Below, piece by piece: positions 3,351-58,820 of a stretch of DNA of 64,000 nt (position 1 is the stretch's first letter; the number at the start of each line of letters is the position of its first letter). Position numbers and translations under genes: made by a program. Below the pieces are notes generated by a model that did no database searches, was not told where the DNA came from, and saw nothing but the letters and a program-made list of their open reading frames with translations. The stretch comes from Olsenella sp. SW781 (lineage in GTDB: Bacteria; Actinomycetota; Coriobacteriia; Coriobacteriales; Atopobiaceae), in contig NZ_SJOU01000001.1 of assembly GCF_012027725.1 (NCBI RefSeq), forward strand, positions 1-64,000, written 5' to 3'.

Positions 3351-3525
3351 TAGAGTGACCTCACTCGATAGAGGCGCGGGCGAGAAGATCCGCGGGGCAG
3401 CCGGCAGGCGTCACGACCCCGCGGGGAGGCGAGCCCGCCGAACTCGGCGCCCGGGCGCGGGCGCGGGGTGGGCCTGCGGGAAAGACCCGCAGGACTGTCT
3501 GCATGAAACCTGCAGGAGCGCTATC
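3351..3525 (+). promoter_or_regulatory. Lysine riboswitch (L box) before lysA, with -10 element
   Basis: Starts with GATAGAGGCGCG (3367-3378) and ends with GGAGCGCTATC (3515-3525), so GATAG pairs with CTATC as helix P1. Inside are GGGGAGGCGAGCCCGCCGAA (3422-3441) and ACTGTC (3494-3499), matching conserved blocks of the Bacillus lysC leader. The ribosome-binding site AAGGGAG comes directly after P1 and there is no T-tract terminator, so lysine binding probably blocks translation. An extended -10 (TGC-TAGAGT, 3348-3356) sits just upstream. Confidence 0.85.
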
Positions 3526-3537
3526 AAGGGAGCTTGC

Positions 3538-4860
3538 ATGACGTGCGTGAAGCAGCCTTTTGTGACCACCGACCAGCTCGTCGACATCGCCGAGCGGTAC
3601 CCCACCCCCTTCCACCTGTACGACGAGGCCGGCATCCGCCGCAACGCGGAGGCGGTGCTCGACGCCTTCTCGTGGAACCCGGGCTTCAGGGAGTACTTCG
3701 CCGTCAAGGCCAACCCCAACCCCGCGCTCATCAAGATCTTGCTGGAGTACGGCTGCGGCTGCGACTGCTCCAGCTACACGGAGCTCCTCATCGCGCGGGC
3801 GCTCGGCGTGCCGGGCGAGAAGATTATGTTCTCGTCCAACGACACGCCGGCCGAGGACTTCCGCCTCGCGCGCGAGCTCGGCGCCATCGTGAACTTCGAC
3901 GACATCTCGCACATCCCGTTCTTCGAGGAGGAGGCGGGGCCCGTTGGCCCGGTCGCGAGCTGCCGCTTCAACCCCGGCGGACTCTTCCGCCTGGCCAACG
4001 GCATCATGGACAACCCGGGCGACTCCAAGTACGGCATGACCGAGGAGCAGCTCTTCGAGGCGTACCGCATGCTCGTCGAGCGCGGCTGCACCACGCTGGG
4101 GCTGCACGCGTTTCTCGCCAGCAACACGCACGGCAACGACTACTATCCCGCGCTCGCGCGCATCCTCTTTGGGCTGGCGGTCCGCCTGCGCGATGAGACC
4201 GGCGCGCACGTCGGGTTTGTCAACCTCTCCGGCGGCGTGGGGATCCCGTACCGGCCTGAGGAGGAGCCCTGCGACATCCGCGCCATCGGCGAGGGCGTGC
4301 GGCGCGCCTTCGAGGAGGTCCTCGTGCCCGCCGGCATGGGCGACGTGGCCATCTTCGCCGAGATGGGCCGCTTCATGATGGGGCCGTACGGCTGCCTGGT
4401 CACGCGCGCCATCCACGAGAAGAACATCTACAAGGACTACCTCGGCGTGGACGCGAGCGCCGTGGACCTCATCCGTCCCGCCATGTACGGCGCCTACCAC
4501 CACATCACCGTGATGGGGCAGGCGGGCGGCCCGGACAAGTGCGCGTGGCCGGCCACGCGCACCTACGACGTCACGGGCAGCCTCTGCGAGAACAACGACA
4601 AGTTCGCCGTGGACCGGGAGCTCCCCGAGGTCGAGCGCGGCGACCTGCTCGTCATTCACGACACCGGGGCCCATGGCTACTCGATGGGCTACAACTACAA
4701 CGGCCGGCTTCGGTCCGCGGAGGTTCTGCTGCGCGAGGATGGCTCCACCGAGCTCATCCGCCGCGCCGAGAAGCCCTCCGACTACTTCGCCACGCTGGCG
4801 TGCAACGGGGCCGTGCAAAGGGGACAGTCACTTTTGCACGCGAACACCGTGCAAAAGTGA
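3538..4860 (+). CDS. lysA: Diaminopimelate decarboxylase
   Basis: 440 residues, fold-type III PLP decarboxylase, making L-lysine from meso-DAP. The PLP lysine is in FAVKANPNP near residue 60. GSLCENNDKFA and DTGAHGYSMGYNYNGR near the C-terminus are the active-site and dimer motifs. The ATG at 3538 is set by AAGGGAG and by the riboswitch ending at 3525; the frame is open upstream but that sequence is the riboswitch. The last residues, after about CNGA, are read from a palindromic repeat (4813-4875), which also supplies the stop codon, so the native C-terminus has been replaced or extended. dapA follows 58 bp later. Confidence 0.93.
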   Translation: MTCVKQPFVTTDQLVDIAERYPTPFHLYDEAGIRRNAEAVLDAFSWNPGFREYFAVKANPNPALIKILLEYGCGCDCSSYTELLIARALGVPGEKIMFSSNDTPAEDFRLARELGAIVNFDDISHIPFFEEEAGPVGPVASCRFNPGGLFRLANGIMDNPGDSKYGMTEEQLFEAYRMLVERGCTTLGLHAFLASNTHGNDYYPALARILFGLAVRLRDETGAHVGFVNLSGGVGIPYRPEEEPCDIRAIGEGVRRAFEEVLVPAGMGDVAIFAEMGRFMMGPYGCLVTRAIHEKNIYKDYLGVDASAVDLIRPAMYGAYHHITVMGQAGGPDKCAWPATRTYDVTGSLCENNDKFAVDRELPEVERGDLLVIHDTGAHGYSMGYNYNGRLRSAEVLLREDGSTELIRRAEKPSDYFATLACNGAVQRGQSLLHANTVQK

Positions 4861-32812: not shown

Positions 32813-32839
32813 GTGCAAAAGTGCCTGTCACTTTTGCAC
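32813..32839. repeat. GGGACA-type palindrome (family H) between T-box and ileS
   Basis: GTGCAAAAGTG-CCTGT-CACTTTTGCAC, a perfect 11-bp stem. It lies after the T-box terminator and ends 3 bp before the AAGGAGGAG ribosome-binding site of ileS, so it may affect translation. Confidence 0.8.
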
Positions 32840-51271: not shown

Positions 51272-51703
51272 ATGAAGCAGAACCAGTACTCGAGAAGGAC
51301 CAACGCGCTCGCGAGGGAGAAGCTCGCGAGCATCCTGCTCTTCGAGGTGTCCGACCCCGACCTCGCGCTCGTGACCGTCACGGGCGTCGAGGTGTCGGTC
51401 GACAAGTCGCTCCTGCGGGCGTTCGTGAGCTGCGACGCCGATCGCTACGACGAGGTCACCGCCGCGCTCGCGCGCGCCAAGGGCCGCATCCGCTCGCTGC
51501 TGGGCCGCTCGCTCGGCTGGCGCGTGACCCCGGAGCTCGACTTCCGCATCGACACCACGACCGACGAGGCCGAGCGCATCGCGCGCGCCCTCGAGGACGT
51601 GCCGCCCACCATCGGCGTCGAGAAGGACGAGTTCGGCTATCCGATCGCCGGCGAGCCCGCGGGCGCGGGCGAGTCGACTGGCGAGAAGAGCGACGGGGAA
51701 TAG
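51272..51703 (+). CDS. rbfA: 30S ribosome-binding factor A
   Basis: 143 residues. The KH-like RbfA fold is seen in NALAREKLASILLFEVSDPDLALVTVTGVEVSVD, followed by KGRIRSLLGRSLGWRVTPELDFRID. It acts in late 16S rRNA maturation. Residues 7-11, SRRTN, use the codons TCG AGA AGG ACC, rare arginine codons that spell the recurrent 10-mer CGAGAAGGAC. A variable acidic tail follows residue 115. Confidence 0.93.
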   Translation: MKQNQYSRRTNALAREKLASILLFEVSDPDLALVTVTGVEVSVDKSLLRAFVSCDADRYDEVTAALARAKGRIRSLLGRSLGWRVTPELDFRIDTTTDEAERIARALEDVPPTIGVEKDEFGYPIAGEPAGAGESTGEKSDGE

Positions 51704-51712
51704 GGGGTCCGC

Positions 51713-52759
51713 ATGCTGGGGGGATCCATGCCCGCCGAACAGGCCGCGCAGTTCGACGCGATCGCCCGCCTGATCGAGGGGGCGCGCACGGTCGTCGTCT
51801 GCGCGCACACCTCGCCTGACGGCGACGCGCTCGGCTCGGGCCTCGCCCTGGCCGAGATTATCGAGCGCACCTGGCCGGGCCGCGAGGTCACGAGCCTGCT
51901 CGCAGACGACGACGTCGTCCCGCGCACCTACGAGTTCCTCCCGGGCGCCAACGGCTTCGTGCGCGCCTGCGCCTACGAGGGCTCGCCCGACCTCTTCGTC
52001 TGCGTGGACCTCTCGCAGCCGGGTCGTCTCGCCGACGCCCGCGCCGTGCTCGAGCGCTCGGCCCACGTGGCGGTGCTCGACCACCATCCCGGGGGAGAGC
52101 CGAGCTGGGACGCCGGGGTCGTGCGCACGGACGCCGCGGCCGCCGGCATCATCGTCGCCGAGTTCGCGCGTCACGTGGGCTGCGAGCTCACGCCCACGAT
52201 CGCGCAGAACCTGCTCTGCGCCCTCATGACGGACACGGGCTGCTTCCAGTACCAGAACGCCAACGGCGAGGCGTTCTGCGTCGCGAGCTCGCTCGTCGAG
52301 GCCGGCGCCTCGCCGTCCGAGGTGTCGCTCCACGTCTACCAGAGCGACCGGCTCGCCTACATTCACCTCTCCGCCACCGTGATGAGCCGCATCACCACCT
52401 TCGAGCAGGGCAAGATCGCCTACAGCTACGCCACGTCGGCCGACTTCGCCGCGACGGGAGTGCCCGTCGCTGAGTGCGACGGCCTCGTCGACCTCGTCCG
52501 CCGCGTCGACGGCTGCGAGGTGGCCCTCTTCCTGAAGGAGGTCCCCGGCGGAAAGGTCCGCGGCAACCTGCGCGCCAAGTCCGACCGCGACATCTCCTCG
52601 ATCGCCCGCGAGATGGGCGGCGGCGGGCACCCCGCCGCGGCGGGCTTCACCGTGGACGGCGACATCGACGAGGCGCTCGCCGTCGTCCTGCCCAAGCTCC
52701 GCGCCCTGTACGCATGTGCAAAAGGGACAGGCACTTTTGCACGCTCCGCGGAGAGCTGA
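51713..52759 (+). CDS. DHH/DHHA1 phosphoesterase, NrnA-like oligoribonuclease
   Basis: Up to 348 residues. The DHH domain has AHTSPDGDALGSGLAL near 32, CVDLSQPGR, VLDHHPGG near 123 and LLCALMTDTGCFQY. The C-terminal DHHA1 domain has RGNLRAKSDRDISSIAREMGGGGHPAAAGFT near 280-312. Family members degrade nanoRNA or cyclic dinucleotide products; the position between rbfA and truB is typical of nrnA. Two starts (51713 and 51728) both have GGGGG upstream. The last residues (CAKGTGTFA) are read from a GGGACA-type palindrome at 52716-52742. Confidence 0.9.
   Translation: MLGGSMPAEQAAQFDAIARLIEGARTVVVCAHTSPDGDALGSGLALAEIIERTWPGREVTSLLADDDVVPRTYEFLPGANGFVRACAYEGSPDLFVCVDLSQPGRLADARAVLERSAHVAVLDHHPGGEPSWDAGVVRTDAAAAGIIVAEFARHVGCELTPTIAQNLLCALMTDTGCFQYQNANGEAFCVASSLVEAGASPSEVSLHVYQSDRLAYIHLSATVMSRITTFEQGKIAYSYATSADFAATGVPVAECDGLVDLVRRVDGCEVALFLKEVPGGKVRGNLRAKSDRDISSIAREMGGGGHPAAAGFTVDGDIDEALAVVLPKLRALYACAKGTGTFARSAES
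52716..52742. repeat. GGGACA-type palindrome (family H) inside the nrnA-like 3' end
   Basis: GTGCAAAAG-GGACAGGCA-CTTTTGCAC. It lies wholly within the coding sequence, 15 bp before the stop, and 20 bp before the truB/ribF start codon. Confidence 0.85.
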
Positions 52760-52761
52760 CG

Positions 52762-54906
52762 TTGGCCCGCCGTCCGAGCGCGTTCTCGGCGCTCATCGCC
52801 ATAGACAAGCCCGCCGGCATGACGAGCCACGACGTCGTCTCCCGCGTCCGCCGCGCGGTGGGCGAGAAGCGCGTGGGCCACGCCGGCACGCTCGACCCGG
52901 CCGCCACGGGCGTCCTCGTGGTGGGGATCGGCCAGGCGACGAAGCTCCTTGGGCTGCTCACGCTCGACCGCAAGGGCTACGACGCCACGTTCCAGCTCGG
53001 CGCCGAGACCACGACCGACGACGCCGAGGGCGAGGCCACGCGCACGGCCCCGGTGCCGGACGAGCTTCTCGACTACATGCGCGCCAAGGCCGAGGTCCTG
53101 AGCCTCAGGGGCGAGCAGGACCAGGTGCCCCCGTCCTTCTCGGCCGTGTCCGTGGGAGGGCGACGCGCCTACGACGCCGCCCGGGCGGGGGAGGAGCTCG
53201 AGCTTTCCGCCCGGCGCATCCGCGTCTATGACGCGCGCCTCCTCTCCGTTGACGCCGGGGCCGGGAGCTGGGAGCTCTCGCTCGACGTCTCCAAGGGCAC
53301 CTACGTGCGCAGCCTCGCGCGCGACCTTGGTCGCCGCCTCGGGTGCCGCGCGCACGTCTCCGCCCTCCGGCGCACCTTCTCCGGTCCCGTCACGCTCGCC
53401 GACTGCATGACGCTCGAGGAGCTTGAGGCCCGTGGCGTGGAGCTCGTCCACGAGCGCTGCCTCGACCCCGTTCGCGTCCTCGGCCTTCCCGAGCGCGCCC
53501 TTGGGCTCGACGAGGTCGTCGACGTCATGAACGGCCGCAGGATCGGGCTCGGGTCCGTCCGGGATGGCGGCGACCTCCGCGTGCCCGCCCCCGGCGAGCG
53601 CGTTGCCCTCACCCTGGGCGGCGGGCTGGCGGGCATCTGGCGCCGCGACGGCCGCCATCTCGTCTGCGATACAAACTTCCCGCAGGCCGTCGAGGGCGTG
53701 CGCGGGCCGGTCGACGTCCGCTCGCTGGGCCCCGAGTCGCCGCTTGGCCCCCGCGACGTTCGCGAGCTCGTGCGGGCCTCCGTTCCCGCGGGCCGCGCGT
53801 TTCGCGGCGGCTTTGGCATGCGTCTGCTCGGGGGCTCCGTCGAGTGCGTGCTCGACGTCCCCTACTGCGAGCCGTTCTTCTCCGTTGCCGTCGACGAGAA
53901 CGGCGCCCGGGTCGATGACCCGCTCTGTTCCGAGAAGGCCGCGCTTGGCGAGGACCGCCGCTTCGTCTGCGCCATCGGCGCCTTCGACGGCCTGCACCGC
54001 GGGCACCGCGCCCTTCTGCGCCGAGCCCGCGCGGAGGCCGACCGCCGCGGCTGCCGCCTGGCCGTCGTGACCTTCTCGCCCGACCCCGCGCGCGTGCTCT
54101 CGCCGGACGCCGCCCCCGATGACCTGCTCTCCGTTGACGACCGAGAGCATGCGCTCATAGACTCCGGAGCCGACGCGCTCCTCGTGTTCTCGTTCACGCC
54201 CGAGCTTGCGGCCGTGCCCTACGAGCGCTTCGTGCGCGAGGGGCTCGGCCCCTTGCTCGACGTGCGCGCCATCGTGGTCGGCGAGGACTTCCGACTGGGC
54301 GCCCGTGGCGCGGGCACCGTGGACGCCCTGCGCGGGCTCGGCGGGGCCGACGGCTTTGACGTCATCGGCGTCGAGCTCTCCCGCGAGGGCGACGAGCCCA
54401 TCACCGCAACGCGCATCCGCGGCCTCATCGAGCGGGGGAGCGTCGAGGAGGCGTCCGCGCTTCTCGGCCGCTGCCACTACGCCGCGGGCGAGGTCGAGCA
54501 CGGGCGCGGCGAGGGCACGGGCTTCGGCTTCCCCACGGCGAACGTGCGCGTGAGCGAGGACGCCTGCCTTCCCGCGGAGGGGGTCTACGCCGGCTTCGTC
54601 GTCGTGGGCGACGGCCTCGGCACCGACCACGTGGGCGAGGTCGCCTACCCCTCCGCGATCAACGTGGGCAAGCCGAGGTCCTTCTCGCCGGGCGAGGAGG
54701 GCGAGGCCTTCCTCGAGGCGACGCTCCTTGGCTTTGAGGGGGACCTCTACGGGGAGCGCGTCCGCGTGGTCTTCGTGCGCTGGCTTCGCGAGCCGCGCGC
54801 CTTTGGCTCCGTGGAGGAGCTGGAGCGCGTGGTTCTGGGCAACGTCGACTGGGTGCGCAAGGCCCTGGGACGGGAGGGCGTCGAGCTCTCGGGGAGGTGC
54901 GCGTGA
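52762..54906 (+). CDS. Fused tRNA pseudouridine-55 synthase and riboflavin kinase/FAD synthetase
   Basis: One 714-residue frame carries two normally separate enzymes. Residues 1 to about 310 are Tru[14 protein letters not shown], the catalytic Asp in [12 protein letters not shown] near 43, [10 protein letters not shown] and a PUA-like tail. After a linker of about 85 residues comes Rib[13 protein letters not shown] near 406 (FMN adenylyltransferase), [13 protein letters not shown], then the riboflavin kinase motif GFGFPTANV near 588 and a C-terminal kinase domain. truB and ribF are often adjacent, so a loss of the stop between them is likely. The start is TTG at 52762 with GGAGAG upstream. 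The last 4 bp overlap dnaG. Confidence 0.92.
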
Positions 54907-56864
54907 TCACCGACGAGGACAAGGAGCGGGTCCGCCAGGCGACGGACTTCGTGCAGCTCGTGGCCGAGACCGTGGAGCTGCGCCAGCGCGGGCAGGAGTT
55001 CTGGGGCTGCTGCCCCTTCCACGGCGAGAAGAGCCCGTCCTTCAAGGTGAACCCGGCGACGGGCCTCTGGCACTGCTTCGGCTGCGGCGACGGCGGCGAC
55101 GTCTTCTCCTACGTTCAGCGCCGCGAGAACCTCGACTTCCCCGATGCCATCCGCTACCTCGCGGACCGCGCCGGGATCGAGCTCGCCGAGGAGCGAGGCG
55201 GCCGGCGCGGCCCCAAGAAGACCCGCCTCATGGAGGCGCTCGGCGCGGCCGAGGAGTACTACCACACCATGCTCATGCGGGGGAGGGGCGCGGGCCCGGA
55301 CGAGGCCAGGCGCTACTTCGCGGGCCGCGGCTTCGGCTCGGCCGTCTGCCGGCGCTGGGGGCTCGGCTTCGCCCCGGGCCGCGGGCAGCTCGTGGCGCAG
55401 CTGCGCGCCAAGGGCTTCACGCCCGCCGAGCTGATCGCGGCCGACCTCGCGCAGGAGCGCTCGGGACGCGTCATGGACCGCTTCTACGACCGCGTGATGT
55501 TCCCCATCCACGACGAGCAGGGCCGCACCATCGCCTTCGGCGGGCGCGTGATCGGGCCCAAGCGCGACAACGTGGCCAAGTACGTCAACACGCGCGACAC
55601 GGCCGCCTTCAACAAGGGCAAGCACCTCTTCGCCTACGACCGGGCCAAGGAGACGATGGCGGCCACCGGCGAGGCCATCGTCTGCGAGGGCTACACCGAC
55701 GTCATCGCCATGCACGAGGCCGGCTTCACCAACGCGGTGGCCGCGCTCGGCACGGCCTTCCGCCTGGACCACGTGCGGCTCATGGAGCGCCAGCGCGTGA
55801 GCAGGATCGTCTGCATGTTCGACGGGGACGCCGCGGGGCAGCGCGCTGCCGAGCGCGCGGTTCGCTACATCGACAAGACGTCGGCGGCGCTGCTGTGTGT
55901 GGTGCTGCCGGACAACCAGGACCCGATGGAGTTCCTCTCCGCCCACGGCGCCGACGCGCTGCGCCCCATCCTCGCCGGCGCCCGCCCGCTCATGGACTTC
56001 GTCTTCGAGAAGCGCCTGGCGGGCCTCGACCTCTCCGCCCCGGGGCTTCGCGTCCGCGCCCTCGCCGACATGGCCCAGCTCCTGGCGCCGCTCAAGCACT
56101 CCGTCCTTCTCGACGAGTACGCCACGCGGCTCGCGGACACCCTCGGCATGGACGTCTCCGAGACCAAGCGCGCGATCCGCGAGGCCAAGGTCGTGGAGGC
56201 CGAGGAGGACCGCGCCCCGGCGCGCGCGGCGAGAAGGACCTCCCGCCCTGTGTCTGCGGCCGCCCGACAGGCGCACCCCGAGGCGCCCCTCGCCGACGAG
56301 GCGGACTACGTGCCCGACGACTACGTGCCCGCCGACGCCTACGAGGACGCCCCGGCCCCGACGCCGGCCCGCCCCGCCGGCGGGGCGGGGTATCGCGCCC
56401 TCTCCGCCGACGACCGCATGCAGGTCGCGGCGGAGCGCGAGCTGCTCGGCGCCATGGCGCAGCGCCCGGACGCCCTCAGGCCCTACGCCGAGCGCATCGC
56501 CGGGCTCTCCTGGTCGGACGCCCGCCACGAGGCGATGGCGTGGGCGATCCTCTCCACGCCGGAGGGCACGACCCCGGCCGCGGCGGTCGCGGCGGCGAGC
56601 TCCGTCGTCCCCGAGGCCCCCTCGATCCTCTCGGGCGGGCGCGTTATGGGCGACGACGAGCTCTCGGACGCCGAGAAGCTCGACTTCATCGTGGACACCG
56701 CCGAGCTCTGCTCGTGCCGGAGGCGGATCCGCCAGATACGCGCGGCGCTCAGCTCCTCGTCGCGCCCCGACGAGGAGTCCCAGGCGCTCTTCCGCGAGGC
56801 GACCGAGCTTCAGCGCCGGGTGAACGAGTTGGTCAGGGCACTTTCCTCGGTATCGTCCGAGTAG
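54903..56864 (+). CDS. dnaG: DNA primase
   Basis: 653 residues. N-terminal CHC2 zinc finger [16 protein letters not shown] ... [11 protein letters not shown], a catalytic core with TOPRIM residues [15 protein letters not shown] near 260 and FDGDAAG near 307, then a less conserved helicase-binding tail from about 430. It lays down RNA primers at the fork. The GTG at 54903 is used because GGGGAGG lies 6 bases upstream and it overlaps the previous stop. Residues near 444 (ARRTS) again use AGA AGG in the recurrent 10-mer. rpoD follows, as in many bacteria. Confidence 0.95.
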
Positions 56865-58745: not shown

Positions 58746-58820
58746 TGGCTCCCCGGGTAGGATTCGAACCTACGACACGCTGATTAACAGTCAGCTGCGC
58801 TACCACTGCGCCACCGGGGA
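58746..58820 (-). tRNA. tRNA-Asn (anticodon GTT)
   Basis: 75 nt including an encoded CCA end. The acceptor stem TCCCCGG/CCGGGGA is perfect, the discriminator is G, the anticodon arm is CTGACTGTTAATCAG, and the T loop is GTTCGAATC. It stands alone on the minus strand, between repeat families B and G. Confidence 0.95.

Follow-up and report, generated by a model that had tools for sequence, protein, structure and literature searches.

TruB and RibF in one reading frame: a gene fusion in Olsenella sp. SW781 and its relatives

In Olsenella sp. SW781 one open reading frame carries a tRNA pseudouridine(55) synthase (TruB) followed by the FMN adenylyltransferase (FMNAT) and riboflavin kinase domains of RibF. 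This arrangement raises the question of whether the frame is real and, if so, whether it gives one protein, how it arose and whether it ties tRNA modification to flavin synthesis. The locus was analysed in a stretch of 64,000 nucleotides (contig NZ_SJOU01000001.1, positions 1 to 64,000, hereafter the window) and in related genomes. The reading that we favour, with a probability of roughly 0.8, is that two housekeeping genes under translational coupling were fused by the loss of a stop; both halves would be active and the tether between them passive.

One conserved frame across TruB and RibF

The translation of the gene is free of stops, and its domains match established families in the expected order (Table 1). 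Pfam TruB_N covers residues 30–182 (E 3.9e-44, above the curated cut-off) and TruB_C_2 residues 183–223 (above its gathering score), while FAD_syn (E 8e-37; 126.9 bits for a gathering score of 27) and Flavokinase (E 1.8e-24; 86.8 bits for a gathering score of 19.6) account for the C-terminal part. The TruB equivalog of NCBIfam, TIGR00431, is passed with 220.2 bits for a cut-off of 151.45. The whole-protein RibF models match significantly (best E 2.4e-73) yet remain below their curated cut-offs (TIGR00083, 173.7 against 184.35 bits; NF004160, 246.7 against 295 bits), and RibF is used here as a label for the domain pair FAD_syn plus Flavokinase, not as an equivalog call. The best solved relative of the TruB part is 1sgv (E 3.5e-55), presumably the Mycobacterium tuberculosis enzyme, and those of the RibF part are 4uze and 2x0k, which we take to be Corynebacterium ammoniagenes RibF and which align over residues 402–704. 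Compared with known tRNA pseudouridine(55) synthases (TIGR00431; 1sgv and 1k8w, the latter presumably Escherichia coli TruB), the window protein has a full TruB match and the GHAGTLDP motif, but carries RibF at its C-terminus; compared with the bifunctional RibF enzymes (2x0k/4uze), it has both domains with their motifs in the usual order, but its N-terminal extension is joined to TruB.

Table 1. Position of the fused gene, its parts and its neighbours in the window (names of the three neighbours are presumed)
Feature	Position	Strand	Remarks
Fused truB-ribF gene	52762..54906	+	714 codons, TTG start, TGA stop
TruB part, residues 1–314	52762..53703	+	end set from the stop of split relatives after ..EGVR
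Linker, residues 315–397	53704..53952	+	equivalent to the RibF N-terminal extension of split relatives
FMN adenylyltransferase (FAD synthetase) domain, residues 398–550	53953..54411	+	Pfam FAD_syn, solved relatives
Riboflavin kinase domain, residues 568–700	54463..54861	+	Pfam Flavokinase, solved relatives
rbfA-like gene	51272..51703	+	upstream, same gene run; presumed name
nrnA/DHH-type phosphoesterase-like gene	51713..52759	+	ends 2 nt upstream of the fused gene; presumed name
dnaG-like (primase) gene	54903..56864	+	directly downstream; likely GTG start overlaps the TGA of the fused gene (GTGA); presumed name

The first possible start of the dnaG-like frame in the list of open reading frames is at 54897. 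Elsewhere in the window lie a lysine riboswitch (3361–3531, +) and a tRNA gene (58749–58820, −); the window holds no FMN riboswitch, the genome's only example being at G000:C33:102059. A short palindrome with arms GTGCAAAAG and CTTTTGCAC occurs with equal spacing at 52716–52742, 32813–32839 and 4831–4857, the first of these copies falling within the nrnA-like gene, at its 3′ end, where it is read as protein. No record in the plasmid collection matched at 80% coverage.

Among 31 genomes sampled in this genus of gut bacteria, TruB was found in 30; 13 genomes have the two genes fused in one frame and 16 have them split into two. The remaining two are G305, in which TruB has a stop and RibF is cut by the contig end, and G300, which gave no TruB match. 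A separate contig scan yielded five fused loci and one split locus (G237, G084, G292, G302, G181 and G297), which were not added to this count, these genomes being in the sample already. The TTG start lies at the identical place in all 13 fused genomes, and in the seven near fused genomes (7/7) the segment between residue 300 and the RibF part measures 285 nt, open and without indels. In the shared frame dN/dS is 0.42 for the linker, compared with 0.18 for TruB, 0.17 for FMNAT and 0.18 for the riboflavin kinase domain, whereas the other two frames of the linker give nonsynonymous to synonymous ratios of 1.35 and 1.45, so that the codon pattern of the linker fits the shared frame only. At the level of sequence, truB-ribF is thus a true single-chain gene fusion, with one conserved frame and purifying selection across the junction. 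The translation, the Pfam domains and the 13 species genomes agree with the original prediction of one uninterrupted frame of 714 residues; the linker that it described is also present, although with 83 residues instead of about 85. An assembly or sequencing error that deleted the stop codon, a possibility raised with that prediction, has a negligible probability, as the frame is shared by 13 species genomes from separate assemblies and selection acts in it, which makes a sequencing frameshift or stop between the domains very unlikely and led us to reject it as an explanation of the junction.

The junction and its stop–start overlap

The split relatives indicate where the two genes met. Their TruB ends in NFPQ[AG]IEGVR followed by a stop, at the position of residue 314 of the fusion, and this stop overlaps the RibF start, as TGATG in most of them and ATGA in a few. 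The genes are also split in all of the 28 genomes sampled in other genera of the family, mostly with a stop–start overlap. In the nearest of these genera (G269 and G216) TruB has the same tail as the fusion, ends in EGVR/K and overlaps RibF by TGATG, and the N-terminal extension of RibF, MLADELLALGPDAPL, matches the fusion linker; RibF of G269 begins with MLADELLALGPDAPLAPERAAELVR, and the linker aligns to that extension. The last truB codons of the split species and of this nearest split genus contain a Shine–Dalgarno-like GAGGGGGT. The pattern GAGGG[GA]GT, with a purine in the Gly codon of EGVR, is found in 16/16 split and 4/13 fused genomes (Fisher p 7e-5, the genomes not being independent), and the strict GAGGGGG in 13/16 and 4/13 (p 0.01). 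Such a decay in the fused genomes would be expected if internal initiation had fallen out of use.

These observations are consistent with a simple model. In the ancestor, truB and ribF would have been translationally coupled, with the TruB stop overlapping the RibF start in a TGATG or ATGA. A small indel would have removed both the stop and the start and placed RibF in the TruB frame, and the former N-terminal extension of RibF would have become the 83-residue tether. A single ribosome pass would then make one protein of 714 residues with three active sites: TruB would isomerise U55 of tRNA, the riboflavin kinase would make FMN and the FMN adenylyltransferase would make FAD. The two halves would most likely behave as independent modules produced in a fixed 1:1 amount, and the fusion may be no new regulatory device but a near-neutral result of overlapping genes in an operon.

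The RibF extension of the split genomes of the genus (for example at loci L100, L106 and L120) contains palindromes, whose best arms are 11–20 bp in 11/16 genomes and 8–9 bp in the other five. One of the 11, G262, has an assembly gap inside the palindrome. The longest palindrome arm in the 13 fused genomes is 9 bp.

The order of events within the genus was addressed with a tree of 35 rows built from the TruB and RibF domains, the linker being left out. The 16 split genomes group in a single branch (SH-aLRT 91) surrounded by the fused genomes, which amounts to two changes. Since the best tree nests the split clade among the fused branches G169, G281 and G261, it would need either a re-split or several fusions, and it suggests an alternative in which the fused state is ancestral in the genus and the split clade a later reversion. 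However, a tree forced to have the 13 fused genomes as one clade is worse by only 1.84 log-likelihood units (AU p 0.457), so that one fusion in the genus without reversal is not rejected. In addition, both TGATG and GAGGGGGT are common to the split species and the nearest split genus, for which retention is the simplest explanation. The presence of the TGATG overlap in the split clade as well as in the outgroup favours a single fusion without reversal, and we regard a later re-split as possible, if rather unlikely.

The tree of the flanking genes conflicts in places with that of the locus, which suggests recombination. In G187 (L114) the flanking genes are near-identical to those of the window, yet truB-ribF groups with that of G259, and recombination at this locus is probable. 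In a split genome, G157 (L124), the RibF FMNAT domain probably carries an insertion: it exceeds that of relatives by about 20 residues, and its score is far weaker (E 1.2e-21, where relatives reach about 1e-38).

Products and activities of the fused frame

A long frame does not necessarily give a long protein, and proteolysis in the linker, or initiation within it, could yield two products. The linker is poorly conserved, with many in-frame GTG and ATG codons, and evolves faster than the domains (dN/dS 0.42 against 0.17–0.18). At residue 353 the codon is ATG in six of seven near genomes and GTG in the seventh, with GGAGG before it in one of them (G302). Residues 304–385 are moreover the least confident stretch of an AlphaFold model of the fusion, which was built from eight related rows and is itself of low confidence (mean pLDDT 56.8), so that no structural claim is drawn from it. 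Against two products, the fused genomes have no conserved internal start with a Shine–Dalgarno match in the linker, and in 9/13 of these genomes the ancestral GAGGG[GA]GT is no longer intact. We consider separate products quite unlikely, and the fused protein would remain uncleaved.

In support of the idea that both halves are active, the TruB motif GHAGTLDP (GH.GTLDP) and the RibF motifs GAFDG.H.GH, GFPTAN and EATLL are each intact in all 13 fused genomes of the genus. We take GH.GTLDP to be the catalytic-Asp motif of TruB, and G.FDG.H.GH, PTAN and the Glu of EATLL to be functional motifs of RibF. In a profile search of the genome of Olsenella sp. SW781, TruB_N, FAD_syn and Flavokinase each have a single match. 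As the motifs are intact and the genome holds no other copies, the fused protein very likely keeps Psi55 formation, riboflavin phosphorylation and FMN adenylylation, and because the domains are sole copies, both activities are probably still needed.

A second fusion clade and the question of a flavin–tRNA link

The domain pair was looked for in other Coriobacteriia and is present, beyond part of the genus, in a second clade. Among 296 genomes sampled across the class, a common frame for TruB and FAD_syn also occurs in families f7 (two genomes), f9 (nine) and f10 (three), at loci L135–L147 and L189; in two of these 14 genomes a contig end truncates the gene, in G038 at the TruB start and in G026 inside FMNAT, with the frame kept. 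The f7/f9/f10 fusions form one clade (support 99, with 11 of the 14 used as rows), and the data reject a single origin shared by every fused row (AU p 4.1e-6). Judged from these trees, the f7/f9/f10 fusion arose independently of that of the genus, which it resembles in domain order and in its single frame. It differs in that six of the nine f9 genomes (G006, G035, G029, G041, G023 and G038; L139–L143 and L145) have no riboflavin kinase domain; the gene stops a short way past the FMNAT motif SSTR.R. No Flavokinase (PF01687) was found anywhere in these six genomes, while it is present in the eight others of that search (8/8). The archaeal-type CTP-dependent riboflavin kinase (PF01982) was considered as a substitute and rejected, with no match in the ten genomes searched, the six included. 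The six genomes are 59–93% complete and still hold flavin enzymes such as Dus. The lack of Flavokinase in 6/6, together with the gene end itself being seen in all six, argues for a real loss of the riboflavin kinase that leaves a TruB–FMNAT protein.

In a sample of 149 genomes of the phylum, in which frames were compared by eye, the only genomes among the matches listed that have both genes in one frame are G000 and G015. G317 was rejected as a fusion: its frame lengths are equal, but the genes are in different frames. In most of the genomes listed truB and ribF lie, again by eye, close together.

It had also been proposed that the fusion links tRNA modification to flavin synthesis. The corresponding alternative is that selection favoured the fusion for the coupling of flavin supply to tRNA modification that it would provide, perhaps through channelling or through a form of local sensing that involves both TruB and RibF. 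The same pair was fused twice independently (p 4e-6 against one origin), and the six genomes of the second clade kept TruB and FMNAT fused despite the loss of the riboflavin kinase. Nevertheless, repeated fusion is expected from the adjacency of truB and ribF in most genomes, close sister species keep the two genes apart, and the linker evolves fast. TrmFO is an FAD-dependent enzyme acting on the neighbouring U54; it is present in 13/13 fused and 15/16 split genomes of the genus, the one that lacks it (G297) being 81% complete, and Dus is present in all 45 genomes searched. A functional link through either of these flavin-using tRNA enzymes was thus rejected, both being found with or without the fusion. 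With a stop loss in the overlap sufficient to explain the fusion, the proposed link finds no support, and selection for coupling appears highly improbable. Also improbable is a broader reading, that TruB–RibF is an adaptive design recurring in Coriobacteriia: TruB, as the half that binds tRNA, would position or regulate flavin synthesis, and one lineage, reduced to TruB–FMN adenylyltransferase without riboflavin kinase in the genome, would need FMN uptake or another kinase.

Multifunctional entries of the TruB–RibF kind may exist in InterPro or UniProt. No paper on a TruB–RibF fusion was found in the open-access library searched. The truB-ribF gene pair is already known as an operon, with the same genes in the same order but, in the accessible portion of that paper, in two separate reading frames instead of one protein (PMC4630832), and the accessible portion of another paper makes no mention of riboflavin or pseudouridine (PMC3711429).

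In conclusion, the window holds a real, conserved and recurrent fusion of two adjacent housekeeping genes, which is a modest evolutionary curiosity. A coupling between flavin supply and tRNA maturation would, if true, be a new regulatory link, and nothing found here requires it. The riboflavin-kinase-free TruB–FMNAT lineage is the more curious part, as it raises the question of the source of FMN. Sister species that differ in whether they carry the fusion offer a ready comparison, and the coupled genes, the fused gene and the reduced fused gene form a natural series of how a stop–start overlap becomes one protein.
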